Shown here in pieces: positions 1,304 through 46,481 of a stretch of DNA of 64,000 nucleotides (its first letter is position 1; each line of letters opens with the position of its first letter). The DNA is taken from NCBI GenBank assembly GCA_009377525.1, contig WHTW01000003.1, positions 1 through 64,000 of the forward strand, written 5' to 3'. The position numbers and the translations under genes were made by a program. The notes under the pieces are model-generated. The model was not told where the DNA came from. It saw only the letters and a program-made list of their open reading frames with translations, and ran no database searches. This stretch comes from Rhodospirillales bacterium (GTDB lineage Bacteria > Pseudomonadota > Alphaproteobacteria > Reyranellales > Reyranellaceae).

Positions 1304-1855
1304 ATGAGCAAGGCCTTCACCAAGGAAAGCGACGGCGAGGACGAGGACGACCTGCCCGACGAGATCGCGGGCCTGCCCGCCGGCGCCAAGAACTACATGA
1401 CCCCCCAGGGCTTCGAGCGCCTGCGCGAGGAGCTGATGACGCTCATGCGCAAGGAGCGGCCCGAGGTCGTGCAGGTCGTGTCGTGGGCCGCCGCCAACGG
1501 CGATCGCTCGGAGAACGGCGACTATCTCTATGGCAAGAAGCGTTTGCGCGAGATCGACCGGCGTATCCGTTTCCTCTCCAAGCGCCTGGAGCGCTCCGAG
1601 GTCGTCGACCCCGCCAAGCGGCCCAGGACCGATCAGGTCTTCTTCGGCGCCACCGTGACCTGCGCCAACGAGAAGGGCGAGGAACGCACCGTCAAGATCG
1701 TCGGCGTCGACGAGGTCGATCTGTCGAAGGGCCATGTGAGCTGGATCTCGCCCATCGCCCGCGCCGTCATGCGCGCACATGAAGGCGACGTCGTGAAGAT
1801 GCGCACGCCCGCCGGCGAGGAAGAGATCGAGATCGTGAAGGTCGAGTACGTCTGA
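1304..1855 (+). CDS. greB: transcription elongation factor GreB
   Basis: GreB rescues backtracked RNA polymerase by stimulating transcript cleavage through its coiled coil inserted in the secondary channel. The 183-residue product has an acidic N-terminal extension (ESDGEDEDDLPDE), then the coiled coil with the catalytic-type acidic tip in the NGDRSENGDYLYGKKR region, then the FKBP-like C-terminal domain ending SPIARAVMRAHEGDV and TPAGEEEIEI, which is the GreB rather than GreA form. The start at 1304 follows an AACAGGAG ribosome site at 1291. It reads away from ureD and stands alone. The acidic extension is longer than in enterobacterial GreB. Confidence 0.95.
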   Translation: MSKAFTKESDGEDEDDLPDEIAGLPAGAKNYMTPQGFERLREELMTLMRKERPEVVQVVSWAAANGDRSENGDYLYGKKRLREIDRRIRFLSKRLERSEVVDPAKRPRTDQVFFGATVTCANEKGEERTVKIVGVDEVDLSKGHVSWISPIARAVMRAHEGDVVKMRTPAGEEEIEIVKVEYV

Positions 1856-1946
1856 ACCGTTGAGCGGTGCGCAGCACATGTCGCCAGCATGCCTCAGGGC
1901 GCCGACAAAATCAATAACTTTGGTAGTATTAATATGACTTCAGTGT

Positions 1947-1974
1947 CGGTGCGCATGATAATTCTTGCGCACCG
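1947..1974. promoter_or_regulatory. perfect 9-bp inverted repeat in AT-rich spacer
   Basis: CGGTGCGCA at 1947-1955 is matched exactly by TGCGCACCG at 1966-1974 around an AT-rich 10-base loop (TGATAATTCT). It lies in the 267-bp gap between greB and the convergent GFA gene, in a patch (about 1905-1965) markedly richer in A and T than its surroundings. It may be a bidirectional terminator hairpin, although there is no following T-run, or an operator for an unseen transcript. No gene was found in this gap. Confidence 0.4.
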
Positions 1975-2122
1975 TATAGGGGGTGCGTTCCAGTGCCGGA
2001 TTCGTTTGTCGCGAGGCGCTTGCAGCCCGACGCCAAACGCAAGAATCAGGCACCGCCGTCAAAGGTCCGGCCGGCCGCGCGAATCCGCTCCATGCCAGCA
2101 CTGACAGCAACCGCGGAGACGG

Positions 2123-2524
2123 TCAGACGGGATGCTCGGCGAATTGCGGCAGGTCGTCGGTGATGGTGAACCACGGCGCCTTGGAGCCGACAAAGATGTG
2201 CCGGGACGGACGGATCGACGGATCGTCCAGGAGCGTGCCCATGGCGACGTGGACGAAGGCGCCGTCGCGGACGACGGAAAACAGCAGCGAGCCGCAGAGA
2301 CCGCAGTGCGTGTCGTTGGCCTTGTCGTCGCCGTAGATCATGAGGTTGTCCGCCCCCTGGGTGACGGCGAACTTCTCGCGCTCGATGCCGGCGAACGGCT
2401 TGAAGGCCGAACCCGTGGTGCGGCGACAGTTGGAGCAGTGGCAGTTCATGGCGTAGCCGAACGAATCGGCCACGGCATAGTGAATCGCGCCGCAGAAGCA
2501 TTTTCCGGCAAGCGTTTTTGGCAT
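2123..2524 (-). CDS. GFA family (Mss4-like) zinc protein
   Basis: This belongs to the family of glutathione-dependent formaldehyde-activating enzyme-like proteins, small cytoplasmic zinc folds whose substrate is usually unknown. The 133-residue product has the zinc-binding cysteines in order: CFCG near residue 9, CHCSNC near residue 28, and CGLCG near residue 75, followed by the FTITDDLPQF ending common to the family. The start at 2524 (MPKTLAGK) is preferred because a GAGAGGAG ribosome site precedes it; an upstream in-frame ATG would add ten unlikely residues. A fragment of a second copy of this gene lies at 8531-8600. Glutathione-formaldehyde activity is not implied by membership. Confidence 0.88.
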   Translation of the reverse strand: MPKTLAGKCFCGAIHYAVADSFGYAMNCHCSNCRRTTGSAFKPFAGIEREKFAVTQGADNLMIYGDDKANDTHCGLCGSLLFSVVRDGAFVHVAMGTLLDDPSIRPSRHIFVGSKAPWFTITDDLPQFAEHPV

Positions 2525-2626
2525 CGCCTCTCCTCTCGCGGGGTGCGCCGGCATTGCTGCCGGCGCTGGATTTGGCCTCGAGAAGTCTATCGACGTCGAG
2601 CGGGCTTCGCCCGCGGCCTGCGCAGA

Positions 2627-2947
2627 CTACGCCACCGCTTGCAACGACGGCCCATCGCCTCTGGCGCGGCGCAGTCGCGCGGCGTCACGGCGTACGCCGC
2701 CGAGGCTGCCGTAAACGGACAGGTAGTCCGCCGCCATGCGCTCGACGGTGAAGCGCTGTTCGAAGGCCGATCGCACCTTGGCGCGGTCGAGCATCGCCAG
2801 CCGCTTGACCGCAGCCGCTGCCCGCATCTCGTCGTCGACGATGAAACCGGTGACGCCGTCGTCGATGACCTCGGGCACCGAACCGCAGTTCCAAACGATG
2901 ACCGGCATGCCGCAGGCCATGGCGTCGACGGACGAGTTCCTCGGTCA
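2627..2947 (-). pseudogene. C-terminal remnant of a GT4 glycosyltransferase
   Basis: About 105 codons match only the end of a GT-B family 4 glycosyltransferase: AMACGMPVI followed by the donor-binding PEVIDDGVTGFIV element and a C-terminal helix. A TGA stop sits in frame just upstream of the conserved part (near 2950), and no N-terminal acceptor domain is present in any frame before the response regulator. A full-length enzyme would need roughly 250 more residues. It is a decayed or truncated gene and should not be expected to be active. Its original substrate cannot be inferred. Confidence 0.8.
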
Positions 2948-3006
2948 GATACGAAACGATCCGTCATCGGCAAGACCTCCTCGACTGAGCGAAGCATCGA
3001 CAATGA

Positions 3007-3039
3007 GGGGCGGCCGCTGCGACGGGACACGGCGGCCCC
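3007..3039 (-). terminator. putative terminator hairpin after the response regulator
   Basis: Read on the minus strand, GGGGC and GCCG pair with CGGC and GCCCC around one mismatch, giving a GC-rich stem 9-41 bp past the regulator's stop. There is no clear U-tract, so it is a weak candidate. Confidence 0.3.
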
Positions 3040-3047
3040 TTACGGCG

Positions 3048-3614
3048 TTAGAGTGGCGGATAGACCCTCGTCCACGGCACGACCGATCCGCCGGCCGGCC
3101 AGCGCTTGTCGTTGGCCACCTCGCGCGGCCTGGCCATCGCCTTCTCGACGGCGGCGATCAGGATCTCCCGGGTGAAGGGCTTCTCGACGACCGGCCTCTG
3201 CCTGTGCCGGCACGGCACCGGCCCGAGCACCCCGGTCGTGAGATAGACGAAGGGCACATCGGCAAAGGCCAGCAGATCGGCGATGGGCAGCGGTGCGCGC
3301 CGGTCGATGTCGAGATCGAGGATGGCGCAATCGATGTCGCCGCGCTGGATCATGCGCTGGATCTCGGACACCGTAGTCGCCGGACCGACGACGCGATAGC
3401 CCGCCTCGTGCAGCAGACGCTGCAGGTCGAGCGCCATGATGGCATCGTCGACGACCATCAGCACCTTGCCCTGCGGCAGGTCGAGAGTGGCGAGCGACGG
3501 CGGCGAAAACCACACGCCCTGAGCCATGGGCCGCGGTTCGAAGCGTTCGTTGTACTCTGGGAGCCGCAGGTTCCACGAATCGCCAAGCGTGGAAGCGGCT
3601 GACGTTGTCGTCAT
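3048..3614 (-). CDS. CheY-like receiver-domain response regulator
   Basis: A cytoplasmic phosphoacceptor protein of 188 residues with one receiver domain (about residues 50-165) and no output domain. The acidic pair is D56/D57, the likely phosphorylated aspartate is D100 (CAILDLDID), the switch threonine is T126 or T127, and the conserved lysine is K145 in EKPF. The first 48 residues are a tail without recognisable fold. It starts 38 bp after hsp20 with a strong AGGAGGT ribosome site, so the two are probably one transcript linking a two-component signal to protein-folding stress. No histidine kinase is nearby. Confidence 0.9.
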   Translation of the reverse strand: MTTTSAASTLGDSWNLRLPEYNERFEPRPMAQGVWFSPPSLATLDLPQGKVLMVVDDAIMALDLQRLLHEAGYRVVGPATTVSEIQRMIQRGDIDCAILDLDIDRRAPLPIADLLAFADVPFVYLTTGVLGPVPCRHRQRPVVEKPFTREILIAAVEKAMARPREVANDKRWPAGGSVVPWTRVYPPL

Positions 3615-3651
3615 ACCTTACCTCCTGTTGGAAAAGCGTTGGTGGGACAGT

Positions 3652-4105
3652 TACTGCTGGGTGATCGTGCGCGGCGTCGCCCGCGCCTCGATGCGGATCG
3701 GCCGCGGCTTCTTCTCCTCGGGCAATTCGCGCTGCAGGTCGATGGTCAGCAGGCCGTTGGAGAGCTTGGCCGCCGTCACGCGGACGTGGTCGGCCAGCTG
3801 GAAGCGGCGCTCGAAGTCGCGCGCGCCGATGCCGCGATAGAGGTACCGGTTCCCTCGTGGCGGTCGGGATGGCCCTTGCCGGTGACCAGGAGTTCGTCCT
3901 CCTTCTGGGTGACGTTGAGCTCGGCCTCGGTGAAGCCTGCCACGGCCATGACGATGCGCCAGGCATCATCGGCCGTCTTCTCGATATTGCAGGGCGGGTA
4001 GCCGCCATGAGCAGGCTGGTCGGCCATCGAATCGAGCATGTCGAAGATACGGTCGAACCCGACCGTGGCCCGATAGAAGGGAGCAAAATCGACGTCGGTA
4101 CGCAT
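3652..4105 (-). pseudogene. small heat-shock protein (Hsp20/IbpA type), frameshifted
   Basis: Hsp20 proteins are ATP-independent holdases that bind unfolding proteins. Reading from 4105 gives MRTDVDFAPFYRATVGFDRIF and the start of the alpha-crystallin domain up to RHEG. The rest of the domain ([19 protein letters not shown], then [16 protein letters not shown] and a C-terminal tail) continues in another frame down to the TAA at 3652. The frame breaks at 3846-3853, where one base appears to be missing in GGAACCGG; family sequences need GNRYLYRGI here. The ATG at 4105 has an AGGAGG site six bases upstream. This is either a sequencing error or a recent inactivation. It precedes the receiver-domain gene. 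Confidence 0.85.
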
Positions 4106-4244
4106 TGTCATCCTCCTCATGAGCGATGGGTTTGCGACCAGCCCCCCGCAGGGCGGCCGGCCTTGCGCTGTCGGAGACTGCGATTCGGAACGAAGCACTC
4201 TGCCAAGCCCAGCTATATTGCGGCGATGGACCGCCCAAACCAAT

Positions 4245-4259
4245 TGCGAATCATTCGCA
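4245..4259. promoter_or_regulatory. Fur-box-like palindrome upstream of the ECF sigma gene
   Basis: TGCGAATCATTCGCA is a perfect 7-1-7 inverted repeat. It matches 10 of the 14 arm positions of the classical 7-1-7 Fur model (TGATAATnATTATCA). It lies 41 bp before the start of the FecI-like sigma factor, in the 194-bp divergent gap with hsp20. Its position suits iron repression of the sigma/FecR/TonB-receptor set. Confidence 0.65.
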
Positions 4260-4299
4260 TCTACCTTAGGATGAAAGGTCCATCCGTGAAGGGCATCCG

Positions 4300-4794
4300 T
4301 TGCGGCAAGGCGATTTCACCCTCGAGATCTATCTCGCGCATCGCGGTGCCCTGGTGAACTACGCCAGCGCGATCACGGGTGATCACGGCCGCGCCGAGGA
4401 CGTGGTGCAGGAGGCCTTCCTGCGATACCGGACGGCATCGGCCAACCGCCGGGTCGACGAGCCGGTGGGCTACCTCTATCGCGTCGTGCGCAACCTCGCG
4501 CTCGATCTCCGTCGCCGGCTGACCCTGGAAGGTCGTCATGTCGTCGACCTCGATCGCACCGTCGTCGAGGTCGAGGACACGGCATCCACGGAAGCGACCC
4601 TCATGGCGCGCGAGGATCTGCGCAACGTCCTGGCGGCGTTGAACGAACTGCCCGAACGCACGCGCATTGCGCTGGAAATGCATCGGTTCGGCGGCTGCAA
4701 GCTCAAGGATATCGCCGCTCGCCTGGGCGTTTCGATCTCGTTCGCCCAGGCTCTGGTCAAGGAAGGCCTCAAGCACTGCCAGCGCAAGCTCTGA
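4300..4794 (+). CDS. FecI-like ECF RNA polymerase sigma factor
   Basis: An extracytoplasmic-function sigma factor of 164 residues that directs RNA polymerase to iron-uptake genes when activated by its FecR partner. Region 2 covers about residues 10-75 (GRAEDVVQEAFLRY, VGYLYRVVRNLALDL) and region 4 about 110-160 (LNELPERTRIALEMHRFGG, LKDIAARLGVS). The start is a TTG at 4300 with GAAGGG six bases before it; no ATG or GTG lies in frame close by. It is followed by a FecR-type regulator and a TonB receptor with an N-terminal signalling domain, the standard cell-surface signalling arrangement. A Fur-box-like site precedes it. Confidence 0.93.
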   Translation: MRQGDFTLEIYLAHRGALVNYASAITGDHGRAEDVVQEAFLRYRTASANRRVDEPVGYLYRVVRNLALDLRRRLTLEGRHVVDLDRTVVEVEDTASTEATLMAREDLRNVLAALNELPERTRIALEMHRFGGCKLKDIAARLGVSISFAQALVKEGLKHCQRKL

Positions 4795-4921
4795 CCGTGG
4801 AATTCGTTGCACGCGCAGGAAAACCACCCTCCCCGCTCGTCTATTACCTGGTACCTGGCGTGACGCGGCAACGTCCGACGAGGGGGCCTTCGCTCCCTTC
4901 GGACGTCGACAAGGCAGAGGC

Positions 4922-5917
4922 ATGGCAGTTTCTCCCACCCCGCGACAGGCGGACCGTGACCAGATCGACGACGAAGCCGCGGAGTGGCTTCTGCTGATCT
5001 CGGAAGCGCCGAAGGACGCCGACCTCCAGGTGCGCCTGCAGGCCTGGTGCTCGCGCAGCGATCTCCATCGCGAGGTCTGGGAGCGGACCCTGCGAACCTA
5101 CCGGCTGATCGGCGAGACGCCGGCCCTCCACCGTACGCACTGGCAGCCCCATGCCGTGGCTGCTGTGCCGCCTGCGACTGCCGTCCGGCGGACATCCCGG
5201 CGGCGGTTGATCGCCGGCGGAGCCGCGCTTGCCGCCGTCGCCGCGGGCGTCGTGGCCATGGCTCCGGCCATGCTGCTGCACCTGCATGCCGCTCATGTCA
5301 CCTCGACGGCCGAGCTGCGCGTACTCACGCTCGATGACGGCAGCCGTGTCCACCTGGGACCGGAAAGCGCCCTCGACGTTGCCTACTCCGACAGCGAGCG
5401 GCGCGTGCGGCTGCTCGCCGGCCGGGCTTTCTTCGACGTGACGCCCAATACCGCGCGGCCGTTTCGCGTCGTCGCGGGCGAAGTCACGACCACGGTGCTC
5501 GGCACGGCATTCGAGGTCTCGCACGAGCAGGACGTCACGACGGTGGCGGTCCGCCACGGACATGTGCGCGTCGACGACAAACGACTTCCGTCCTCGCGCG
5601 ATCTTCGGGATGGCGAGACGCTTCGCGTGGCTGCCCGCGGCGTTGTGCAGGCGGGCACGGTTCCGGCCGACGACGTGGGCGACTGGACGCGCGGCCAGGT
5701 CGTAGCGCGAAACAAGTCTATCGCCGATATCGTCGCCATGCTGCGCCCCTACTATGACGGCCTGATCGTCGTGCAGGACGACGCGTTCTCTCGCATCGAG
5801 GTGAGCGGCATCTACGACCTGCTCGACCCCGTCGGCACGTTGCGAAGCCTGGCCTCGCTTCATGGCGCCACGATGCGCCAGATCTCGCCCTGGCTGCTGG
5901 TCGTGACCAGCCGCTGA
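4922..5917 (+). CDS. FecR-type sigma regulator
   Basis: FecR proteins sit in the inner membrane, hold the sigma factor, and receive the signal from the periplasmic domain of the TonB receptor. The 331-residue product has an N-terminal cytoplasmic segment with the WLLLISEAP/LQAWCSRSDLHREVWERT pattern (about 15-65), one membrane helix near 95-120, the FecR periplasmic domain (LTLDDGSRVHLGPESAL, GRAFFDVTPNTARPFRVV, VLGTAFEV) and a C-terminal secretin/TonB short-N-like part (IADIVAMLRPYYDGLIVV). The start at 4922 follows GGCAGAGG; the frame extends upstream into the sigma gene but is not coding there. There is a 127-bp gap after the sigma gene. Confidence 0.92.
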   Translation: MAVSPTPRQADRDQIDDEAAEWLLLISEAPKDADLQVRLQAWCSRSDLHREVWERTLRTYRLIGETPALHRTHWQPHAVAAVPPATAVRRTSRRRLIAGGAALAAVAAGVVAMAPAMLLHLHAAHVTSTAELRVLTLDDGSRVHLGPESALDVAYSDSERRVRLLAGRAFFDVTPNTARPFRVVAGEVTTTVLGTAFEVSHEQDVTTVAVRHGHVRVDDKRLPSSRDLRDGETLRVAARGVVQAGTVPADDVGDWTRGQVVARNKSIADIVAMLRPYYDGLIVVQDDAFSRIEVSGIYDLLDPVGTLRSLASLHGATMRQISPWLLVVTSR

Positions 5918-6109: not shown

Positions 6110-8521
6110 GTGATCGTGGCCAGCTTGACGGCCCTGCCTTCCATGAGGACGCCGTGGGCGCAGGAGCCGACGGCTCCCTCACAGCTCTCGCAAATGGGAG
6201 AACGCGACTTCGACATTCCGACGCAAGGCCTCAGCGAAGCGCTGATCCTGTTCGGCCGGCAATCGGGCCTGCAGGTCTCGGTCGAGGTGAACGTCGTTCG
6301 CGCCGCCCGCAGCCCTGGCGTCAAGGGTCGCATGACCAGCGAACAGGCGCTCGCCGCCCTGCTGTCCGGCACGGGGCTCGTCTATCGGGTCAGCGGATCG
6401 ATGGTCGCCGTGGAGAGCCCGCAGTCGCGGGCAACGGGCACGATCCAGCTCGATCCGGTACAGGTCCAGGGTTATCCGGTGCCACGGCAGGCCATGATCG
6501 ACAACCTGCCCCCGCCCTATGCCGGCGGCCAGGTCGGAACGGGCAGCCAGCTCGGCCTGCTGGGCAACCGCGGCGTGATGGACACGCCGTTCAACCAGAC
6601 CAGCTACACCGCCAAGAAGGCGCAGGACCAGCAGGCCACGACCATCCGCGACGTGCTGCTGGATGATCCGTCCGTGCGGCAGGCCCGAGTCGATGGGGGC
6701 GCCATCGACGATTCCGTCTTCATCCGCGGCTTCCAGGTCAGCCCGTCCGCCTATAGCTACGGCGGCGTCTACGGCATGCTGCCGATCCTCTCGCCGATGA
6801 TGGAGCTGGCCGAGCGGGTCGAGGTGCTGAAGGGCCCCAGCGTCATGTTGAACGGCATGCCGCCCTTCGGTTCGATCGGCGGCACCGTCAACATCGTGCC
6901 CAAGCGCGCGCCTGACGAAGATCTGAACCAGGTGACGGCGACCTACATCTCGCCCGGCCAGGTCGGCGGCCATGTCGACGCCGCCCGGCGCTTCGGCGAC
7001 GACAGGCAGTTCGGCGTACGCGCCAACGGCGTCTTCAGGTCCGGCCAGACCGAGGTGTCATACAACAGCGACCAGCGCGCGCTTGCCGTGCTGGGTCTCG
7101 ATTTCCGCGGCGAGCGCGTGCGGCTCGCCGCCGATCTCGGTTACCAGTACCAGTACATCGGCGGACTCGTCGGCTATCTCGGCGTCGCCAACAACATTCC
7201 CGTGCCCTGGGCGCCGGATGCCCGCACGAACCAGGGGCAGCCGTGGAACTTCCAGGACCGCAAGGACGCCTTCGGCGTCATCCGCGGCGAGTTCGACATC
7301 ACGGAGCGCATCACCGCCTATGCCGCCTTCGGTGCCCACGACTATCGAATGGCGGGCATGTACACGTTCGGCAACACCGTCACCAATTTCAACGGCGGCG
7401 CCACCGCCTTCGCACCGTTCGCCATCAGCCAATACAACTCGTACCTGACCGGCCAGGCCGGCTTGCGTGCGCTCGTCGATACCGGTCCGATCGGCCACGA
7501 GTTCGCGGTCAACGCCTCGACCGTGCAGCTCGATAGCGGAACCGTAAACGTCTTCGGCACCGCCTTCGCCACGAACATCTACGGTCCGACGCTGATGCCT
7601 CAGCCCAACCTTGCGACCCCGCCGTGGACCAGGACAGCGACCCAAGGCCTGTCCAGCCTGGCGATTGCCGACACCCTGTCGGCCGCGGACAAGCGGATCC
7701 AGCTCACGGCCGGCGTGCGGCTGCAGCAGGTCACGGCTGCCAACTACAATCCCACGACTGGCGCACAGACGTCCTACTACGACCAAAGCGCGACAAGTCC
7801 ATCGGTGGCGCTGGTGTTCAAGCCCTGGGAAAACGTCTCCGTCTACGGCAACTGGATCCAGGGCCTGCAGCAGGGCATCATCGTCCCCGCCAACTTCACC
7901 AACGCCGGCGAGGTGTTCCCGCCGTTCAAGTCGACGCAGTACGAAGTCGGCGTGAAGGTCGACTGGGGCAAGTTCACCACCACGGCCAGCCTCTTCCAGA
8001 TCTCCCAGCCCAGCGTGCTGACCAACACGGCGAACAACACGCAGTTCCTGGGCGGCGAGCAGCGCAACCAAGGACTCGAGCTCGAGGTCTTCGGCGAACC
8101 GCTGCCCGGCGTCCGCGTGCTGGGCGGCATGATGTTCCTCAATCCAATCCTCACCAAGACCCAGGCCGGGGCGACCGACGGCTGGATCGCGCCGTTCTCG
8201 CCGCTCTTCAACCTCAACCTCTCAGGCGAATGGGACCTGCCGTTCGTGCGCGGCCTGACCGCGGTCGGCCGTGTCCTCTACACCAGCTCGCAGTACATCG
8301 ACACGACCTGGCCGCGGCGCAGCCTGCCCGACTGGACGCGGTTCGACGTCGGCCTGCGCTATGCGTTCGATAATCCCGGGGCAAAGGGCAAGCTTCTCGT
8401 GGCGCGGCTCAATGTCGAGAACGTGCTCGACACCGACTATTGGGCCGGCGGCGTCAATGCGACGGCGCTGTTCCTCGGCCAGCCGCGGACGTTCCGCCTG
8501 TCGCTGACCGCGGATTTCTGA
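6110..8521 (+). CDS. TonB-dependent siderophore receptor with N-terminal signalling domain
   Basis: An outer-membrane receptor of the FpvA/FcuA type that imports a ferric siderophore using TonB energy and signals to FecR. The 803 residues contain an STN domain (DIPTQGLSEALILFGRQSGLQ, about 34-85), a plug domain (about 165-285, with VEVLKGPSVMLNG and GSIGGTVNIVPKR) and a 22-strand barrel ending FRLSLTADF with the terminal aromatic. The start is uncertain: a GTG at 6110 gives a short signal sequence lacking basic residues. An ATG at 6058 lies in another frame whose early part (MTGRKNK) would suit, so a frameshift near 6070-6090 is possible. The ligand cannot be told from sequence. Confidence 0.9.
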   Translation: MIVASLTALPSMRTPWAQEPTAPSQLSQMGERDFDIPTQGLSEALILFGRQSGLQVSVEVNVVRAARSPGVKGRMTSEQALAALLSGTGLVYRVSGSMVAVESPQSRATGTIQLDPVQVQGYPVPRQAMIDNLPPPYAGGQVGTGSQLGLLGNRGVMDTPFNQTSYTAKKAQDQQATTIRDVLLDDPSVRQARVDGGAIDDSVFIRGFQVSPSAYSYGGVYGMLPILSPMMELAERVEVLKGPSVMLNGMPPFGSIGGTVNIVPKRAPDEDLNQVTATYISPGQVGGHVDAARRFGDDRQFGVRANGVFRSGQTEVSYNSDQRALAVLGLDFRGERVRLAADLGYQYQYIGGLVGYLGVANNIPVPWAPDARTNQGQPWNFQDRKDAFGVIRGEFDITERITAYAAFGAHDYRMAGMYTFGNTVTNFNGGATAFAPFAISQYNSYLTGQAGLRALVDTGPIGHEFAVNASTVQLDSGTVNVFGTAFATNIYGPTLMPQPNLATPPWTRTATQGLSSLAIADTLSAADKRIQLTAGVRLQQVTAANYNPTTGAQTSYYDQSATSPSVALVFKPWENVSVYGNWIQGLQQGIIVPANFTNAGEVFPPFKSTQYEVGVKVDWGKFTTTASLFQISQPSVLTNTANNTQFLGGEQRNQGLELEVFGEPLPGVRVLGGMMFLNPILTKTQAGATDGWIAPFSPLFNLNLSGEWDLPFVRGLTAVGRVLYTSSQYIDTTWPRRSLPDWTRFDVGLRYAFDNPGAKGKLLVARLNVENVLDTDYWAGGVNATALFLGQPRTFRLSLTADF

Positions 8522-8530
8522 GGCGCCGGC

Positions 8531-8600
8531 CTACGTCGAAGATGCCTCGTGTTGTGGCAGGTCGTCGGCGATGGTGAACCATGACGCCGAGTACTTTGGG
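8531..8600 (-). pseudogene. terminal fragment of a second GFA-family gene
   Basis: About 22 codons ending at 8531 read WFTIADDLPQHE, closely matching the WFTITDDLPQF end of the intact GFA gene at 2123-2524, also at the DNA level. Nothing of the zinc-binding part remains; the DNA upstream belongs to the hydrolase-nuclease gene. Confidence 0.6.
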
Positions 8601-8643
8601 GACGCTAAACTAGCGGGCCGCCACCAATCGTCTCCGCAACCGC

Positions 8644-9906
8644 TCAATTCCCGAGTCGTCGTTGCGCTCGCCACTCCCATGGCGCCAGACAGGCATGGGC
8701 ATGGACGCCGACGCGCGCCCGCATCGCCTGGACCTCCTGCTCGGCGTAGTCGCCGCCGTCGCCGGTGACCGCCAGCGCCATGCCGGACACGACCATGGCG
8801 GCGCCAAGGTCCCGCCCACCGGCTCGGCACAGGGCCACCGTGCGCCCGTAACCGTCTTGGGCCTTGGCCTCGCAGGTGACGGGGCGCCGCTCGATCATGG
8901 CGGCCAGGGCGCGGGCCGCCTCGATGCCGGCCCGCCAGCCTTGCGGATAGCACCGCTGGTCGAGCTCGGGCGCGTCGATGCCCCAAAGCCTGTAGGTCGT
9001 GCCGTCCATCTTGATCGTGTTGCCGTCGATCGCCACCGCCTGGGGAGGCTTGGCCGACAGGCCCTGGTCGGCAAGATAGGCTTCGAGCGCCTCGGTCCAG
9101 AGGTCGGGTATGGCGGCAATTTGATGGCCGTCCAGCCCCTGCGGCGGGACATGCTCACGGAACGCGCCCTTGCCGCCGGCGGCCCGGAAGGCGGCGAAGT
9201 TCCTCCGGCTGTGCCGCAGCGAATAGTAGGAATCCCTGTAGCCGTAGAGCCAGATCGTCGCCTGATCGAAGACACTTCCACGACGGAAGAGGTCCGCATT
9301 GACGTCGTCGATGGAGGCGCAACGCTCGCTCAGCCATCCTCCGACGAAGTTCACGACCGCGCGCGGGACCGCAGGCTGCCGGCCGCTCCAGGCGACGGAA
9401 AGGATGCCACCGCGCGACAGCCCGCCAACGGCGACCCGCTCGCGATCGACAAAGGGCTGCGCCAGGAGCACCGGCGTGATGGCATCGATATCGCGCAGCG
9501 CGCGCTCGGCGCCCGCGAGCGCCAGCGCCGGCTCGCAGCTGTAGCCCTGTGCACGGTCGGGCTCGAAGCCTTCGTCGTAGGTGCCTTCCGAGCCGCCGCG
9601 CCCGCGACGCGAAGGCAGGATGACGGCCCAGCCGCGTGCCGTGAACCAGCCGGCCAGCGCCTTGGGATCGTAGGGCCGCTCGAAGAGCGCAGGATCACGG
9701 CCGCTTCCGGTCGAGCCGTGATGGAAGATCAAGGTCGGGAATGGCCCGTTGCCGGGCGGCTTGTAAGTGATGGTGGCCAGCTTTACCTGTTCGCCGTCAA
9801 TCGTAACTGGCACCATTGTGCGTTCCTGCGCGGCCAGTGAGCCGGGCACCACAAAAACGATGCAAGCAAGAAGAAGCGAGCCCAGTCGTCTGCTGGCGTG
9901 AATCAT
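8644..9906 (-). CDS. secreted alpha/beta hydrolase fused to an SNase-like nuclease domain
   Basis: A 420-residue protein with a signal peptide (cleavage near SLAAQ, residue 27). Residues 35-280 form an alpha/beta hydrolase of the dienelactone-hydrolase/prolyl-oligopeptidase type: FHHGSTGSG for the oxyanion region, nucleophile S164 in GLSRGG, probable D225 and H261. Residues 290-415 are a staphylococcal-nuclease-like domain: DGNT (D294), RLWGIDAPE (R306, D311, E314), YGRTVALC (R355), and the PWEWR end common in bacterial SNase homologues. The key SNase residues (Asp21, Arg35, Asp40, Glu43 and Arg87 equivalents) are all present. The two domains are joined in one frame without a frameshift. Its substrates are unknown; I infer a periplasmic or secreted enzyme. 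It lies at the edge of a decayed region. Confidence 0.85.
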   Translation of the reverse strand: MIHASRRLGSLLLACIVFVVPGSLAAQERTMVPVTIDGEQVKLATITYKPPGNGPFPTLIFHHGSTGSGRDPALFERPYDPKALAGWFTARGWAVILPSRRGRGGSEGTYDEGFEPDRAQGYSCEPALALAGAERALRDIDAITPVLLAQPFVDRERVAVGGLSRGGILSVAWSGRQPAVPRAVVNFVGGWLSERCASIDDVNADLFRRGSVFDQATIWLYGYRDSYYSLRHSRRNFAAFRAAGGKGAFREHVPPQGLDGHQIAAIPDLWTEALEAYLADQGLSAKPPQAVAIDGNTIKMDGTTYRLWGIDAPELDQRCYPQGWRAGIEAARALAAMIERRPVTCEAKAQDGYGRTVALCRAGGRDLGAAMVVSGMALAVTGDGGDYAEQEVQAMRARVGVHAHACLAPWEWRAQRRLGN

Positions 9907-10167
9907 CGGTCAGATCTCGTCGGCGAACGCAACAGATCCCGCATGCAACTTACCACCAAGGCTTCTTGTCGTCGCCGTCCTGGTCAGCGTCTTGGCCCTC
10001 AAGACGACCTCAATGGCAGGCCGCTGCCAGCGCCTGGGACACCGCGTCGATGTTGCGGGTTGGCGGCATCGGCGCGCCGCCGCACGACGGCGATCTGGCG
10101 CGTCGGGCCGCCGCGGCCGAGGCCGAGCGCGCGCACGCCATGCGCCTCCAGCAGTGCCTGGCGCGGC

Positions 10168-18177: not shown

Positions 18178-19932
18178 ATGGCAGACATGTTCGAGTCCGG
18201 ATTCGAGGCAGGCCCGTTGGCCACCATCGTGCTGGCCGGCCTGCTGGTGCTGTTGGCCCTCGCCGGGCCCAGGATCAGCGCGCGGCTCGCCTTGTCGCGC
18301 GCCAAGCACCGATCGCTCGCCGGCCATTCGCGCCTCTCGCAGCGCATCGCCGCCCTGGTGCCGCGCTATGCCTACGACGACGCGCAGTTCTTTCGTTCCG
18401 ACGACGCCAGTGCGGAGATCGCCGATTGCCGCCGTGCCGCTTTCGAGCGGCTGTCGCGCCAGATGCGCGCGAGCGGCGCGCGCACGCTCGACCGCACCGC
18501 CGAGGCCGCCCAGCACATCTCGGACCTGCAGTTCACCGAGAGCTACCGCGTGCCCTTCCAGTTCAGCCCACGCGTCAAGGCCGAGCTGCCCGCCGGCTCC
18601 TTCGTCGCCGCCGCGCACGGCGTGCAGGTCACCGATCTCGACGGCAATGCCCGCTACGATCTGAGCGGCTCCTACGGCGTGAACCTGCTGGGCTACGACT
18701 TCTACAAGGGCTGCATGGAGCGCGGCGCGACCCGCGTCGGCGCGCTCGGCCCGGTGCTGGGCACCTATCCGTCGCTGGTCGCAGACAATGCCGCGCGGCT
18801 CGCCCGGATTTCCGGCAAGGACGAAGTCTCGTTCCACATGTCGGGGACGGAGGCGGTCATGCAGGCCGTCCGGCTGGCGCGTTATCACACGAAGCGTTCT
18901 CATCTTGTGCGCTTCTGCGGCGCCTATCACGGCTGGTGGGGCGACGTGCAGCCCGGCGTCGGCAACCCGGTGCCCGCCCACGACACCTACACCCTGGCGG
19001 ACATGTCCGACGCCACGCTGGCCGTGCTGCGCCGCCGCGGCGACATCGCCTGCGCGCTGGTCAATCCGGTGCAGGCGATGCATCCCAACCTCGGCGCGCC
19101 GGCCGATTCGACCCTGGTCGCGAGTCGGCCGGACCGCAGCGTCGATCGCGCCGCCTACGTGGCCTGGCTGAAGGCGCTGCGCGCCATCTGCTCCGAGCGC
19201 GGGATCGTGCTGATCTTCGACGAGGTCTTCCTTGGCTTCCGCCTGGCGCCCGGCGGCGCCCAGGAATATTTCGGCGTCGAGGCCGACATCGTGACCTACG
19301 GCAAGACGGTGGGCGGCGGCTTTCCCATCGGAGTCGTGTGCGGCCATCACCGCTTCATGAAGCGCTTCCGCGACGACCGTCCCGCCGACATCTGCTTCGC
19401 GCGGGGCACGTTCAATTCCCATCCTTACGTCATGGCGGCGATGAACGAGTTCCTGCTCCACCTCGAGACGCCTGCGATGCAGGTCCTCTACCGCGACCTC
19501 GATGCGACCTGGGAGCGGCGCACCGCCTCGCTCAACCGGCGGCTGGCCGAGCGCGGCCTGCCGCTTCGGATCGCGCATCTCTCGTCGGTCTGGACGGTCT
19601 GCTACACCGCCTCGTCGCGCTACAACTGGATGTTCCAGTACTACCTCAGGGAAGCGGGCCTTGCGCTCAGCTGGATCGGCACCGGGCGGCTGATCTTCAG
19701 CCTCAACTTCAGCGAGGCCGACTTCGAGGCCGTGGCCGACCGCTTCCTCGCCGCCGCCGAGGCGATGCGCCTGGACGGCTGGTTCGAGACCGGCGCACTT
19801 GCCACCGACAAGGCCGTCAAGCAGCGCATCCTGCGCGAGATGCTTGCCCACGCCCTTCCTCCCCAGCGAAGCTGGTACGGAGTGAACACGTCCCCGCATC
19901 AGGCTCCCCCCGCTAGGGGGAGAGGAACCTGA
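18178..19932 (+). CDS. membrane-anchored class III (glutamate-1-semialdehyde-type) aminotransferase
   Basis: A PLP fold-type I enzyme of 584 residues. Residues 10-32 form a transmembrane helix (ATIVLAGLLVLLALAG), unusual for this cytosolic family. The catalytic part starts near residue 110 and resembles glutamate-1-semialdehyde 2,1-aminomutase: GTYPSLVADNAARLA, HMSGTEAVMQAVRLAR, the cofactor aspartate in LIFDEVFLGFR, the Schiff-base lysine in TYGKTVGGGFPIG, and FARGTFNSHPYVMAA. A KLV- or haem-type substrate is not implied; such fusions also act in natural-product or lipid amine formation. The start at 18178 follows AAGG in the end of the repeat. The last 15 residues look like read-through of repeat-like sequence. 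Confidence 0.85.
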   Translation: MADMFESGFEAGPLATIVLAGLLVLLALAGPRISARLALSRAKHRSLAGHSRLSQRIAALVPRYAYDDAQFFRSDDASAEIADCRRAAFERLSRQMRASGARTLDRTAEAAQHISDLQFTESYRVPFQFSPRVKAELPAGSFVAAAHGVQVTDLDGNARYDLSGSYGVNLLGYDFYKGCMERGATRVGALGPVLGTYPSLVADNAARLARISGKDEVSFHMSGTEAVMQAVRLARYHTKRSHLVRFCGAYHGWWGDVQPGVGNPVPAHDTYTLADMSDATLAVLRRRGDIACALVNPVQAMHPNLGAPADSTLVASRPDRSVDRAAYVAWLKALRAICSERGIVLIFDEVFLGFRLAPGGAQEYFGVEADIVTYGKTVGGGFPIGVVCGHHRFMKRFRDDRPADICFARGTFNSHPYVMAAMNEFLLHLETPAMQVLYRDLDATWERRTASLNRRLAERGLPLRIAHLSSVWTVCYTASSRYNWMFQYYLREAGLALSWIGTGRLIFSLNFSEADFEAVADRFLAAAEAMRLDGWFETGALATDKAVKQRILREMLAHALPPQRSWYGVNTSPHQAPPARGRGT

Positions 19933-19950: not shown

Positions 19951-20640
19951 CTAGACGGCCGTCTTCGAGACCGGGACCGGGACTTCCTCGGCGATCTCTT
20001 CGCCGAGCTCGGGGATGATCTCCGAAATGATCGGCTCGGCGACCGCCTGCGCGGTGTGCCGTGTGTACCGGCCGGTCATCAGCTCCCACGGCGCGCGGTG
20101 GTAGAGCTTGATGTCGTGGAACGGATCGGTGGCGATCTTGGTGGCCCATACCAGGCCGGTCTGGATGTCCTTGAGGACGAACAGCTGGACCACGCGGACG
20201 GCGATGCCGGCCAGGCCCACCGCCAGCCACAGTTCGCCGACATGGGTGATCAGCTCGGCCGTGTCGGCGTGCGGGGTGAACATCCCGAGCAGGGTCGGGT
20301 CGACGACCAGCAGCAGCGGCGAGGCCGCCCACACGGCGAGCAGCACCAGCTTGCGCTTGATGTTGTAGCCGACCTTGATCTCTTCCTTGTATTCGTCGGT
20401 CGCCTGGTTGATCTGGTCGTAGTCGCGCGGCTCGAAGAACAGGTGGCCGACCTGGCGGGTGGTCATGGCGACCAGCCAGCCGATCAGCGCCGCCATCGCG
20501 GGATCGGAGAACGCCACCACGTAGGCGAAGAGGAAGCTCGTCGCGCTCACGAGGTGAAGCGACTGGTTGACCTTGCTGTGGTGATAGTAGCGATGGTCGT
20601 CCCAACGCTGCACTTTCAGTTCGTTCCAGAAGCCACTCAT
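19951..20640 (-). CDS. multi-spanning membrane protein, possibly Mpo1/DUF962-like
   Basis: A 229-residue protein with about four transmembrane helices (residues 30-48, 49-67, 98-116, 133-155) and a Glu/Val-rich tail. The segment YYHHSKVNQSLHLVSATSFL and the later VGHLFFEPR recall the Mpo1/DUF962 pattern (Y-x2-H-x3-N-x3-H and G-H-x-F-F-E). In yeast Mpo1 those histidines hold iron for oxygenation of 2-hydroxy fatty acids. The match is partial and my identification is tentative. The ATG at 20640 has AAGGA upstream. It follows a PEMT-like gene and an oxygenase-like gene in the same direction after a 247-bp gap. Confidence 0.5.
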   Translation of the reverse strand: MSGFWNELKVQRWDDHRYYHHSKVNQSLHLVSATSFLFAYVVAFSDPAMAALIGWLVAMTTRQVGHLFFEPRDYDQINQATDEYKEEIKVGYNIKRKLVLLAVWAASPLLLVVDPTLLGMFTPHADTAELITHVGELWLAVGLAGIAVRVVQLFVLKDIQTGLVWATKIATDPFHDIKLYHRAPWELMTGRYTRHTAQAVAEPIISEIIPELGEEIAEEVPVPVSKTAV

Positions 20641-20887
20641 GAGCGCTTTCCTTGTCGGTGAGGGGAGGCCGCGGCCAGCCGCGATCGCCGGCCCGCCGCC
20701 CGGGGAGGGGAACGGCCGGCGCCTGGTAGGTGGAAGCTCGGAAGGTCGGTCCATACCGGCGGGGCTGGACCGATGAGAGGGGGTTACTGTCGTCTTGCTC
20801 TTTCCGGCGGTGCAGCAGGCAGGAGGCGCGGTCCGGCCGTCGGTCGGACGACCATTGCACGCCAGTGACCTTCCTACCGCGTTCCGG

Positions 20888-21730
20888 TTACAGGAAAGAG
20901 ACGCCGTATCCGAGCGCCGCCAGCAGGGTCGCGATGAAGGTCAGCGGGAGCAGCGGATGGATGTTGTTCAGCCGGCGGAACAGGTTGCACAGGAAGCCGA
21001 CGGCGAATTGCGGCGGCGTGCGCGGACTCTTCGAGTACTCCATCGCCGACTTGACGACATGGAACACGGCGGTGTTGGCGGCGAGTCCGACGCGCGCCGC
21101 GACTGCGCCGTTGCGCGGGGTGACCAGGTAGTTGCACTTCAGCAGGATGCGCTGACGGTCGGCGGGGTTGTATTGCCCTTCGACCCAATGCAGCTCGCGG
21201 TGGAAGTCGAGCAGGCCGAACTCGTAGCTGCCGAAGGCCTTTTCGAGATGGCTGTCGGCGAACACGACCTTGTAGGTGGTGTCGGACTGCAGGTAGATCA
21301 GCGCCCGCACGACGATGCTGGACGACAGGAAGCGCAGGTTGCCGTCGTAGTGCTTGTCGAACAGTCCCTGGTCGCCGCCGCGGTCCTTGTTGTAGTGCGA
21401 GAGGTAGAGCTCGTCGGTGTGCTTCATCGGCGCGATGACGCTGCCCGCCGGCACCTGATCGGCGATCAGGGAGCGGATCAGCGGGCTGTCGCGCAGTCGG
21501 TCGATCTCGGCGATCACCGGCGCGGGGAGCATGTCGACATAGACGTGCTTCGACGGCCGCTTCGCCAGGTCCTCGGCGTAGCGGTCCTCGACCCATCGCA
21601 CGAGGCCGTCGATGACCGCGCGGTCGGCCGGCGCGTCGAACCGGCCGACGGTCGCGGGAAAGTGTCGCGCGAGTCTGCCCGGCACTCCGACCTTGGCGTT
21701 GGCGGCGGCCTCTGTCTGCATGGTGCTCAT
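20888..21730 (-). CDS. uncharacterised membrane-tethered protein with 2OG-oxygenase-like HxD...H...R pattern
   Basis: A 280-residue protein I cannot assign by name. Between residues 110 and 205 it shows the spacing of a 2-oxoglutarate/Fe(II) oxygenase: H127-Y-D129 (LFDKHYDGNLRF), a distal histidine at 177 or 181 (LLDFHRELHW) and an arginine at 192 or 194 before the strand ILLKCNYLV. The C-terminus (about 257-279) is a transmembrane helix. The start at 21730 follows AAAGGG. It lies 23 bp after a PEMT-like gene, probably in the same transcript. I infer oxidative modification of a membrane lipid or acyl chain; the fold assignment is by pattern only. Confidence 0.5.
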   Translation of the reverse strand: MSTMQTEAAANAKVGVPGRLARHFPATVGRFDAPADRAVIDGLVRWVEDRYAEDLAKRPSKHVYVDMLPAPVIAEIDRLRDSPLIRSLIADQVPAGSVIAPMKHTDELYLSHYNKDRGGDQGLFDKHYDGNLRFLSSSIVVRALIYLQSDTTYKVVFADSHLEKAFGSYEFGLLDFHRELHWVEGQYNPADRQRILLKCNYLVTPRNGAVAARVGLAANTAVFHVVKSAMEYSKSPRTPPQFAVGFLCNLFRRLNNIHPLLPLTFIATLLAALGYGVSFL

Positions 21731-21753
21731 GGGGGTTCCCTTTGTGAGTTCGG

Positions 21754-22416
21754 CTACGCGGACCCGGCGACGGCGGCGAGCAGGGCGCCTGCCAAGACGA
21801 GGGCCAGGACGAGGCCGCCGCCGATCCGGACGGTGCGGCGCCGCCGCGGGCCGGCCAGCTCCATGGCGAGCAATCCCAGGTTCAGGACGATGTGCAGGAC
21901 CGCCAGCGGCCACCACTGCTCGCGGAACGACCCGTTGATCAGGGTGCCGCCGAAGGCCGCGACGTTGCCCAGGATCATCGGATGGCTGGTCAGCGAATAG
22001 GGAAAGGCGGTGATCCGGCGCGGCGGCAGGCCTCCAACCTCGTGACCGTAGTAGGTCCGGTCGAGGCCGAGGGCGGCGGCGGCCCGGACGTTCAGCAGGA
22101 TGCCGCCGGCGATGACGGCGAGCGAGACGGGGTCGATGGGCGCGCGGAGATAGACGAATGCCAGGGCTGCGACCGACACTGTCTTCATGGCGACGGCATC
22201 GCGCTTGAAGACATCGAAGGCGACCCGGCCGAACGCGAAGGCGAGCCAGTAGAGGACGTAGTGCCAGAAGCTCAGCAGGTAGATCGCGAGCGGCAGGCTT
22301 CGCTCGAGCGCGGCGCCCAGCACGACCGCAAGGACGAGCACGGCGCACGCCAAGGTCGAGCTATTGCGCCTGACGACGGCGCGGAACGAGCTGGAACGTT
22401 CCGAGAGGGCGGCCAT
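21754..22416 (-). CDS. membrane methyltransferase of the phospholipid N-methyltransferase (PEMT/ICMT) type
   Basis: A 220-residue integral membrane protein with about five to six helices. The stretch at residues 120-160, TYYGHEVGGLPPRRITAFPY followed by SLTSHPMILGN, matches the SAM-binding signature of phospholipid methyltransferases of the PEMT family, where an R-(V/I)-T-x-F-P-Y motif precedes HPM-x2-GN. A late glutamate (E187, LLAMELAGP) corresponds to the second SAM contact. Members methylate phosphatidylethanolamine derivatives toward phosphatidylcholine. The start is the ATG at 22416. It heads a probable operon with the oxygenase-like and Mpo1-like genes downstream. Confidence 0.65.
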   Translation of the reverse strand: MAALSERSSSFRAVVRRNSSTLACAVLVLAVVLGAALERSLPLAIYLLSFWHYVLYWLAFAFGRVAFDVFKRDAVAMKTVSVAALAFVYLRAPIDPVSLAVIAGGILLNVRAAAALGLDRTYYGHEVGGLPPRRITAFPYSLTSHPMILGNVAAFGGTLINGSFREQWWPLAVLHIVLNLGLLAMELAGPRRRRTVRIGGGLVLALVLAGALLAAVAGSA

Positions 22417-22532
22417 TCATGGGAGCCGAAGGCTCAAGATCGGGACGACGATGCAGACACGTCACGGAACGATAACGCCGCAGTGTGTCAGGCGCGTTAC
22501 CCGTCGAGCATCGGGCGCCGTTCCAAACACCC

Positions 22533-44548: not shown

Positions 44549-45153
44549 TGGCGGTGCGCGAGTTCAAGACGGCCGAGAGTTTCTATAAGTGGCTCGGCAG
44601 GCAGCACGACAAGGCGGACGAGGTCTGGATCAAGATCCACAAGGTCGGCTCGGGCCTGCGATCGATCACGCCCAAGGAAGCGATCGACGTCGTGCTGTGC
44701 TGGGGCTGGATCGACGGCATCCGCAAGGGATTTGACGATAAAAGCTTCCTGCAGCGCTACACGCCGCGCGGCCGCAAGAGCACCTGGAGCCAGATCAACG
44801 TCGACAACGTCGACCGGCTGATCAAGGAGGGCCGGATGACCGAGCACGGCCTGCGCGAGGTCGAGGCCGCCAAGGCCGACGGGCGCTGGGATCGCGCCTA
44901 CAGGATCAAGGGCACGACGATGCCGGTCGATCTGCAGGCCGCCATCGACGCCGAGCCGAAGGCCCGGCGCATGTTCGAGAAGCTCAGCGCCCAGAACCGC
45001 TTTGCGCTGGCCTTCCGCACCCAGAACATGAAGACCGAGAGCGGGCGACGAAGGAAGATCGAGACCTTCGTCGACATGCTGAAGCGCGGCGAGACGATCT
45101 ACCCGCAGAAGGGCGTCACTTCGCCTTCAAGAGGTCGGTCACCTTCAGGATGA
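44548..45153 (+). CDS. YdeI/OmpD-associated family protein
   Basis: A 201-residue soluble protein. The YdeI pattern is visible: FYKWLGRQHDKADEVWIKIH, KEAIDVVLCWGWIDGIRKGF, QRYTPRGRKSTWSQIN and a C-terminal RRRKIETFVDMLKRGE helix. Homologues relate to cationic-peptide resistance or stress, but function is not settled. It is coupled to PaiB upstream. The last 38 bases run into the convergent phytase-like gene, so its C-terminal extension (KGVTSPSRGRSPSG) may not be conserved. Confidence 0.85.
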   Translation: MAVREFKTAESFYKWLGRQHDKADEVWIKIHKVGSGLRSITPKEAIDVVLCWGWIDGIRKGFDDKSFLQRYTPRGRKSTWSQINVDNVDRLIKEGRMTEHGLREVEAAKADGRWDRAYRIKGTTMPVDLQAAIDAEPKARRMFEKLSAQNRFALAFRTQNMKTESGRRRKIETFVDMLKRGETIYPQKGVTSPSRGRSPSG

Positions 45154-46481
45154 CCAGCTCGTTGTCGTCCGATTTGCCGAGCGCGCGGCCCGACGAGAAA
45201 GGCAGGTTGTTGTCGTTGCCGACGATGATGCGATCGCCGTCCAAGACGTCGACATTCTCGATGGTGAAGAACGGGAAGGTGAACTTGCCGTCCTTGCCGC
45301 CCTGGCGGGCGACCTTGTTGGGATTGTCGATGTCCATCAAGTCGATGTAGCCCACCTTCTTCACGAACCCGTCGCCGTCGGCCTGGCCGAAGTCGACCTT
45401 GTAGATGCGCTTGAACCTGGCAGGCACGTTGAAACAGTCGGGCTTGGGCGCGCCGGCGGCGCAGGCGAGCGCGGGATCGCCTTCGCTGTCGTCGCGCTCG
45501 ATGATCAGACCGCTCTGAGCGTCGATCAGGTTGAAGTCGCCGATCGAGTTGGTCGGCGCTTCGAGCGCATACTTCCAGCTCTTGCCGGTGTAGGCGCCCT
45601 TGTCGACATCGAACTCGAGGATGCGAAGGTAAGTCGTGCCTTCCTTCGACTCGGGCTGGCCGTCGGCCGCCGTCAGCAGCGGCCCCTCGAGCAGAGGATA
45701 GAGGAACTTGCCGTCGGGCGAGGCCGCCATGCCCTCGAAGCCCTTGCTGCGACGGACGTCGAACTTTACCGGGCCGGGGACGGCCGGCATCAGTGTCGCC
45801 GGATGGTCGGGCGAGCGCACGGGCTTGCCGTCGACCATGGTCTCGAACACCTGCAGCACCTTGCCGTTCTTGTCGGTCTTGATCAGGAACGGCCCGAACT
45901 CGTCGCCGAGCCACAGCGTGTCGCCGATCGGCTGGATCGATTCGATGTCGAAGTCTCCGCCTGTGAGATAGCGCTTGGCCGTGTTCTCGTTGACGATGCG
46001 GAACGGCACCTTGCGGTCGGGATCGTGCAGGAAGGTCGTCGACGCGCGCTCGACCGCGCCCGTCTTCCAGTCGGGCTTCACCACATGGAACATCAGCATC
46101 GCGTCGGGCGAGTTGGCCTTCGAGCCGAAGCCGTTGTCGGTCAGCGTCAGGAACGTGCCGTCCTTCTGGGTCTTGATGCCTGACAGGCCCTGCACCGGCT
46201 GGCCCTTGAGCGGCAGGCTGATGCCGGTGGGTCGCGGCGCCGCCTTGTCGGACAGGGCGGAGATGCCGGGCATGCTCTCCGGCGTGTCGACCCGCTTGGC
46301 CGGGCGGGCCGGCATAGCGGCCAGAGATCCGCAACTGCTCGGGCGCATCGGCCGGCGGCGGCACGAGCGTCATCGCCGGCAGGACTGCCTGGCCTTCGAG
46401 GGCGGCCGGATACTTGGCCTGGGCCATGGCGCTGGTCGCCAGAAGGATCGCAGTTGTGGCGAGCAGGAATGATTTGCGCAA
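45116..46481 (-). pseudogene. phytase-like esterase (esterase-like activity of phytase family), frameshifted
   Basis: A signal peptide (MRKSFLLATTAILLATSAMA, from a TTG at 46481 after GGGGAG) and the first mature residues lie in one frame up to GRYAGP. The rest (KRVDTPESMPGISALSDKAA, KAAPRPTGISLPLKGQPVQG, the YLTGGDFDIESI and IIERDDSEGDPA blocks, ending IILKVTDLLKAK-like) lies in the next frame to 45116. The break falls at 46293-46314 in a run of C and G, so one base is missing. Without it the product is about 450 residues, like other exported members. They form beta-propellers with phosphoesterase-like activity. It is divergent from phoX. Confidence 0.8.

Follow-up and report, generated by a model that had tools for sequence, protein, structure and literature searches.

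Hydroxylation of a bacterial membrane lipid is known from LpxO. Further enzymes that hydroxylate such lipids, OlsC, OlsD and OlsE, are described in the available text of PMC3972451, which also records that phospholipids are degraded under phosphate limitation. PlcP, Agt and BtaA-BtaB make up a lipid set of phosphate limitation under PhoB control, according to the available portions of PMC4796936 and PMC3972451. The subject of this report is a gene pair in a 64,000-nucleotide stretch of a Reyranellaceae genome (contig WHTW01000003.1, positions 1 to 64,000), hereafter the window. The first gene encodes a PEMT-like integral membrane methyltransferase (PEMT; 21754-22416, minus strand, 220 amino acids) and the second an unnamed, putatively membrane-tethered protein with the predicted fold of the 2-oxoglutarate (2OG)-Fe(II) oxygenases (OX; 20888-21730, minus strand, 280 amino acids). 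PEMT-OX resembles the PhoB-regulated remodelling set in that it is found in the same genomes, sometimes in the same locus, and with Pho-box-like sites. It differs in that the available portions of the two papers mention neither a PEMT-OX pair nor a 2OG oxygenase (PMC4796936, PMC3972451). A literature search joining '2-oxoglutarate-dependent' with 'betaine lipid' found nothing.

An earlier note on positions 19951-22416 had grouped PEMT and OX with a third gene, for an Mpo1-like membrane protein (MPO; 19951-20640, minus strand, 229 amino acids), as a single lipid-modifying system. The three open frames are indeed there, all on the minus strand, and all three proteins have conserved counterparts in other genomes, which marks them as real and not chance frames. 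The lipid theme in general is also supported. The grouping is not: MPO has its own distribution and its own cluster, with an aminotransferase and a decarboxylase. What remains is PEMT-OX, two genes that are candidates for a so far undescribed oxidation of bacterial membrane lipids at phosphate limitation.

A conserved PEMT-OX operon

PEMT was recognized correctly in the earlier note. It matches the phospholipid methyltransferase family PF04191 at 39.3 bits, above the cut-off of 25. All 17 aligned relatives match the family too, and an RTY...FPY...PM..G motif is conserved. What sets it apart from a typical PF04191 protein is its position beside OX at every OX locus where this could be tested.

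A scan of the whole genome library for OX returned 52 loci; single-sequence patterns were used, which remote members may escape. Twenty-nine of these loci hold the same OX genes as a search of the 76 genomes of the order, so the two sets of results are not independent. The other 23 are referred to as outside the order's set, with their taxonomy resting on record titles. PEMT is present in 48 of the 52 loci, and in the four that lack it (L047, L055, L079 and L081) the contig ends 0-268 nucleotides upstream of OX. Wherever at least 800 nucleotides of upstream sequence are available, PEMT adjoins OX (47/47), in 46 cases co-directionally. The exception, L077, carries the most diverged OX (52% identical), and there PEMT is convergent yet still adjacent. 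Of the 47 co-directional loci, 27 have the PEMT stop overlapping the OX start, as ATGA in 17 and as GTGA in 10 with starts chosen by script; in the window the two genes are separated by 23 nucleotides. Within the order, OX and PEMT are each found in 30 of the 76 genomes and together in 29, G031 having OX solely as a contig-end fragment and G057 having PEMT solely as a partial match. PEMT-OX is therefore a conserved two-gene operon.

Clustering of the 2,140 open reading frames of the 52 loci, of which clusters 4-9, 12 and 13 were inspected, revealed no other gene conserved beside the pair. These clusters comprised aminotransferase and decarboxylase frames with their shadow frames, tripartite-transporter receptor-like proteins and ABC ATPases, the last two disregarded as common families. 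Distance co-evolution was discarded as evidence of pairing, since all three pairs correlate: r is 0.90 for OX and PEMT (47 loci), 0.88 for OX and MPO and 0.97 for OX and the aminotransferase (19 loci each).

The OX family is rare in the sample of the phylum, where a profile search found it in one of 397 genomes, that of the window. The operon is open to experiment, because Reyranella soli NBRC 108950 (L038), a named strain, is among the carriers. Four metagenome-assembled genome records (L066, L068, L071 and L082), which bear the name Bordetella parapertussis or Klebsiella pneumoniae in their titles, also carry OX at 62-67% identity; these names look misassigned.

A predicted oxygenase fold outside the described families

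By sequence, OX has no match beyond chance in Pfam, NCBIfam, PHROGs or the PDB, and none of 26 family members matches a 2OG-family Pfam entry at E<=1. A beta-lactamase-like identity was rejected because its matches are at chance level (NCBIfam 12.4 bits against a cut-off of 680, E 0.065; PDB E 0.9-1). In this respect OX stands apart from OlsC, OlsD, OlsE and LpxO, since neither Pfam nor NCBIfam contains a described oxygenase family that it matches by sequence.

The earlier note had read an H-x-D...H...R pattern into the sequence. The window and the 52 loci supplied 26 sequences, selected for breadth and 51-76% identical to the OX of the window, whose alignment upholds most of it. H127, D129, H177, R178, H181, R194, K198 and C199 are invariant in all 26, residues of catalytic type among them, while R192, also named in the note, varies (Q in L042 and L050, for instance). 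The putative Fe(II) ligands are H127 and D129 of an H-Y-D triplet (21344-21352, minus strand) and H181 (21188-21190, minus strand), which lies on a predicted strand of residues 181-184. R194 (21149-21151, minus strand), a putative 2-oxoglutarate-binding arginine, opens the predicted strand 194-204.

An AlphaFold2 model of OX (pLDDT 81.4, pTM 0.80) places eight strands within residues 98-204 and carries the double-stranded beta-helix of the 2OG-Fe(II) oxygenases, the feature by which the note had proposed to check its assignment. Foldseek matched the model to 77 PDB chains at E<=0.001, with P3H1 at the top. Among the best 50 of the 77, the titles are those of 2OG or related non-haem iron oxygenases (prolyl hydroxylases, FtmOx1, OkaE, HygX and ACC oxidase, among others), with a single non-enzyme title, the N-terminal domains of Vaccinia C16. 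VIA-align gave Z scores of 12.9 for OkaE (162 residues, 3.4 Å), 12.7 for SnoN and 12.4 for PHD2; matches within 1 Z unit were treated as ties, so that no subfamily is claimed. Titles naming no enzyme are few among the listed matches of both searches (C16 and two uncharacterized proteins). In the model, residues 111-130, including the HxD motif, have block means of 50-51 pLDDT (51 for residues 121-130, which hold H127-Y-D129), so the predicted geometry of the metal site is of low confidence.

Compared with the solved oxygenases of the prolyl-hydroxylase kind and their relatives (PHD2, P3H1, OkaE and SnoN), OX shares the predicted beta-sandwich core and the HxD...H...R arrangement, the 50 VIA-align matches listed having Z scores of 11.6-12.9 across some 156-176 residues. 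It differs in its identity of only ~8-17% in the structural alignments, in an extra C-terminal helical hydrophobic region and in its constant PEMT partner. A hydrophobic segment lies within the last 45 residues in 24 of the 26 relatives, making a C-terminal membrane tether plausible for this protein, which the note had called membrane-tethered. Because of the predicted fold and the invariant residues, OX is taken as a cryptic 2OG-Fe(II)-type oxygenase: judged by its modelled fold it is an oxygenase, and it is outside every described family in the libraries searched. Neither this missing family nor the PEMT-OX operon was found described in those libraries or in the literature searched, though the kind of biology is otherwise known.

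Association with betaine-lipid and phosphate genes

The gene for the betaine-lipid enzyme BtaA (PF11899) was sought in 79 genomes. It is present in 20 of the 23 OX genomes outside the order's set, compared with 16 of 199 genomes of the phylum sample (over cut-off), and in all 21 OX genomes tested within the order, of the 30 there. A BtaB-like gene adjoins btaA in each of the 14 btaA regions read from OX genomes, including that of the window's own genome (G000:C156), where btaAB lies on another contig (L182). This second methyltransferase is a further departure of PEMT from typical PF04191 proteins, and it makes PEMT unlikely as the enzyme that methylates diacylglyceryltrimethylhomoserine (DGTS). 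The labels BtaB, Agt and PlcP are presumptive, assigned by family and gene context; those PlcP-like and Agt-like proteins that were scanned score under the cut-offs of all their NCBIfam matches.

In some genomes the link is physical. Flanking genes were listed for 21 of the 23 outside loci (all except L055 and L079) with a crude gene caller and picked by eye. At L058 and L067, btaA, btaB, PEMT and OX follow one another co-directionally; the OX proteins of these loci are 95.7% identical and represent one lineage. At L075, btaAB is convergent with PEMT-OX in the same locus. The BtaA proteins score 320 bits (L058) and 167 bits (L075) against PF11899. A PlcP-like metallophosphatase lies in the PEMT-OX locus of L062. 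Upstream of the pair in L063 are a permease and a PhnD-like binding protein, the latter under the PhnD cut-off and over that of the broader subfamily. L067 has a PstS-like gene ~4.7 kb from PEMT, under its NCBIfam cut-off. L066 encodes, at 2066-5527 on the minus strand, a PhnD over cut-off, a permease, an ABC ATPase and an HD oxygenase of phosphonate degradation, also over cut-off.

The L066 locus combines PEMT-OX and the phosphonate uptake and degradation genes with the aminotransferase cluster.

Pho-box-like sites upstream of the operon

Sites were counted against a fixed consensus; the weights of an earlier scoring had been widened after the Reyranella sites were viewed. Twenty outside loci entered the count, L055 and L079 (PEMT absent from the locus) and L077 (PEMT convergent) having been dropped, and L058 and L067 are near duplicates within it. 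Upstream of PEMT, sites with at most two mismatches occur in 3 of these 20 loci against 0.4% of shuffled sequences, with at most three in 5 against 2.4%, and with at most four in 13 against 20%. As a control, a site with at most two mismatches precedes 10 of 19 pstS-like matches. The pstS-like match of the window's own genome (L160), itself under the family cut-off, has CTGTCACGAGACTGTCAT, with no mismatch.

In the window, a Pho-box-like direct repeat GGGTAAC-N4-CTGACAC lies upstream of PEMT (22485-22502, minus strand), followed 9 nucleotides further on by TTATCG (22470-22475, minus strand). The core of the repeat, GTAAC-N4-CTGAC, recurs in 15 of the 22 upstream regions aligned for the core clade, the window's included. 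The btaA genes of two relatives (L139 and L142) have the canonical-type site CTGTCATCAAACTGGCAC, with near variants in L130, L145 and L147, and any site over threshold, scored with the widened weights, is found in 15 of 30 btaA loci. No clear enrichment over shuffles was detected upstream of the aminotransferase gene, MPO or OX. These upstream motifs are suggestive of Pho control of PEMT-OX but no proof of it.

A proposed role in lipid remodelling

The interpretation given slightly better than an even chance here is that PEMT-OX serves as a lipid-remodelling operon of phosphate limitation, in which OX would oxidise and PEMT would methylate a membrane lipid, likeliest a betaine lipid, with the aminotransferase and MPO forming a separate lipid module. 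Phosphate limitation would probably induce the operon. OX, as a predicted Fe(II)-, 2-oxoglutarate- and O2-dependent oxygenase held at the membrane by its C-terminal helix, would most likely act close to the head group of a membrane lipid, hydroxylating it or oxidising it in some other way; PEMT, translated from a transcript shared with OX, would methylate that lipid with S-adenosylmethionine. The most likely substrate pool would be the phosphorus-free betaine lipids diacylglycerylhomoserine (DGHS) and DGTS produced by BtaA-BtaB, because the operon travels with that pathway. The predicted fold, the invariant residues of catalytic type, the conservation of the operon, its association with btaA and the fusion of the aminotransferase with MPO are observed; catalysis, regulation, substrate and order of steps are what we infer in this scheme.

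Several observations count against remodelling of betaine lipids. Only gene context points to the identity of the substrate. The association with btaA outside the order's set has a Fisher p of 7e-16, from a comparison with a phylum sample that is not matched for taxonomy; three of the 23 outside OX genomes, for which completeness is not given, have no btaA match. Within the order btaA fails to discriminate, because it is common in genomes without OX as well (28 of 35 tested). A gene for phosphate or for non-phosphorus lipids is found in the flanks of only 6 of the 23 outside loci (L058, L062, L063, L066, L067 and L075), and the window locus is not among them. The presence of BtaB-like genes leaves PEMT unneeded for DGTS methylation, and an ordinary phospholipid is a possible substrate. 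As for regulation, 7 of the 20 outside loci have no site at up to four mismatches, 7 of the 22 aligned upstream regions do not keep the GTAAC-N4-CTGAC core, and the window's own repeat has four mismatches to the canonical box and is weak by itself. Across all 47 loci the enrichment is modest (score of at least 17 in 21% against 9.5% shuffled).

The alternative that survives best, though rather unlikely, is that ordinary phospholipids such as phosphatidylethanolamine and phosphatidylcholine are the substrates of PEMT-OX, through their acyl chains or head groups, with OX, for example, hydroxylating an N-methylated phospholipid, and that btaA is a fellow traveller of lifestyle. The PEMT family is named for phospholipid methylation, and the frequency of btaA without OX in the order fits such a role. 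It sits less well with the co-directional btaAB-PEMT-OX arrangement of L058 and L067, with btaAB beside OX in L075, with the phosphate- or phosphonate-uptake genes of L063, L066 and L067 and with the enrichment of Pho boxes. Linked btaAB, uptake genes and Pho boxes together point to phosphate-limited conditions, when phospholipids are degraded (available text of PMC3972451).

Within the betaine-lipid reading, a narrower version may be considered, in which PEMT-OX is a missing tailoring step that makes another betaine lipid out of DGTS or its precursor, for instance one of the hydroxylated or rearranged diacylglycerylhydroxymethyltrimethyl-beta-alanine (DGTA) type. This we hold to be quite unlikely as a specific proposal. 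In the available text of PMC10685587 the enzymes making DGTA are called unknown, and that of PMC4796936 leaves its origin in heterotrophic bacteria open. If the product does prove to be a betaine lipid beyond DGTS, PEMT-OX would open a biosynthetic question that these passages call unsolved (PMC10685587, PMC4796936).

A protein substrate is very improbable. OX would then hydroxylate a protein, and the PEMT-like enzyme would methylate a membrane protein instead of a lipid. The PEMT superfamily does include carboxyl methyltransferases of lipidated proteins, and P3H1 and PHD2 are, respectively, the top Foldseek match and among the best Z scores of OX. The small-molecule oxygenases OkaE, SnoN and FtmOx1, however, tie with them within 1 Z unit, and the gene context is one of lipid and phosphate metabolism; the inspected clusters revealed no further conserved neighbour of the pair.

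A separate aminotransferase-Mpo1 cluster

In yeast, Mpo1, of the Mpo1/DUF962 family (PF06127), is a 2-hydroxy fatty acid dioxygenase, a function given partly by the Pfam title. MPO resembles it through a weak PF06127 match and four invariant histidines. The protein of the window scores 21.1 bits, under the cut-off of 24, which leaves the earlier note's assignment short of the family threshold; in its favour, 10 of 11 aligned relatives match PF06127 at E<=0.01, and H16, H20, H29 and H66 are invariant in all 11. These histidines are presumably the counterparts of the iron ligands in Mpo1. Unlike yeast Mpo1, MPO has a class III aminotransferase as its partner, in two genomes as a fusion, and is usually clustered with a phosphatidylserine decarboxylase.

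In the window this aminotransferase (AT; 18178-19932, plus strand; PF00202, 110.3 bits), a fourth gene absent from the note, is convergent with MPO. It is of the glutamate-1-semialdehyde 2,1-aminomutase (HemL) type, which is among its best NCBIfam matches, but differs from HemL in scoring far under the cut-off (159 against 527 bits), in having an N-terminal hydrophobic segment (residues 11-29) and in its lipid-gene context.

MPO follows AT more closely than it follows OX. It is found in 34 of the order's 76 genomes, once as a fragment (G025) and thus in full in 33, and a close AT homologue (best match at least 76% identical) is found in exactly these 33. With G025 counted as lacking MPO, 28 genomes have both OX and MPO, two have OX only (G008 and G010), five have MPO only (G022, G027, G042, G054 and G061) and 41 have neither. 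Where at least 3 kb of sequence lies downstream of OX, MPO is present in 18 of 40 loci, and within 700 nucleotides on the same strand in 16. Twenty-six OX genomes (the 23 outside the order's set plus L044, L049 and L059) were searched whole, and 20 have no MPO homologue; the six that do are the same six with a strong AT match. The co-occurrence of three genes expected in the note thus reduces to that of PEMT and OX.

Beyond the order, a profile search found MPO in 25 of 398 genomes of the phylum. Apart from the window's own, 24 such regions remain, of which 20 were read (L216-L235, several families); both AT and a phosphatidylserine decarboxylase match are present in all 20, and a query with the Agt-like glycosyltransferase, of the GT4 type, matches in 17 of the 20 at 29-52% identity. 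A methyltransferase beside MPO in L217 and L229 has PmtA as its best NCBIfam match (151 and 134 bits, under the cut-off of 390). AT and MPO are fused into one protein in two genomes, G488 (L115, 746 amino acids, with a second copy at L116) and G491 (L117, 742 amino acids). Because of this independent distribution, the constant partners and the fusion, MPO belongs with AT in a lipid gene cluster of their own, which in many Reyranella happens to lie next to PEMT-OX.

The pathway of the earlier note, in which OX 2-hydroxylates an acyl chain that MPO then shortens by alpha-oxidation, is the least credible reading. The co-occurrence of OX and MPO within the order is confounded by descent, and this co-occurrence and their adjacency in 16 loci are outweighed by the OX genomes that lack MPO, by the much wider occurrence of MPO than of OX in similar phylum samples and by the allegiance of MPO to AT and the decarboxylase.

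From family chemistry alone, one may guess that AT and MPO would deaminate an amino-lipid and then oxygenate the oxo- or hydroxy-group so formed. No description of an aminotransferase-Mpo1-decarboxylase cluster was found in the literature searched, where the name DUF962 is absent from the 12 papers listed of 78 matches. The pairing, tied by fusion, offers a handle on the role of bacterial Mpo1-like proteins.

The fused genes lie at 1644-3884 (L115) and 7265-9493 (L117), both on the minus strand. Genes like btaA and btaB share the fusion loci L116 and L117, and L117 also holds PlcP-like and Agt-like genes. In L233, from a 2.2-Mb genome, a protein of 911 amino acids with a C-terminal GT4 glycosyltransferase region (7374-10109, minus strand) is encoded inside the decarboxylase-AT-Mpo1 cluster. 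The phosphatidylserine decarboxylase of the cluster has no match within the 64 kb of the window. About 23 kb from PEMT-OX, the window encodes a phytase-like esterase-domain protein (45116-46348, minus strand; PF13449, 204 bits), which is possibly phosphate-related.

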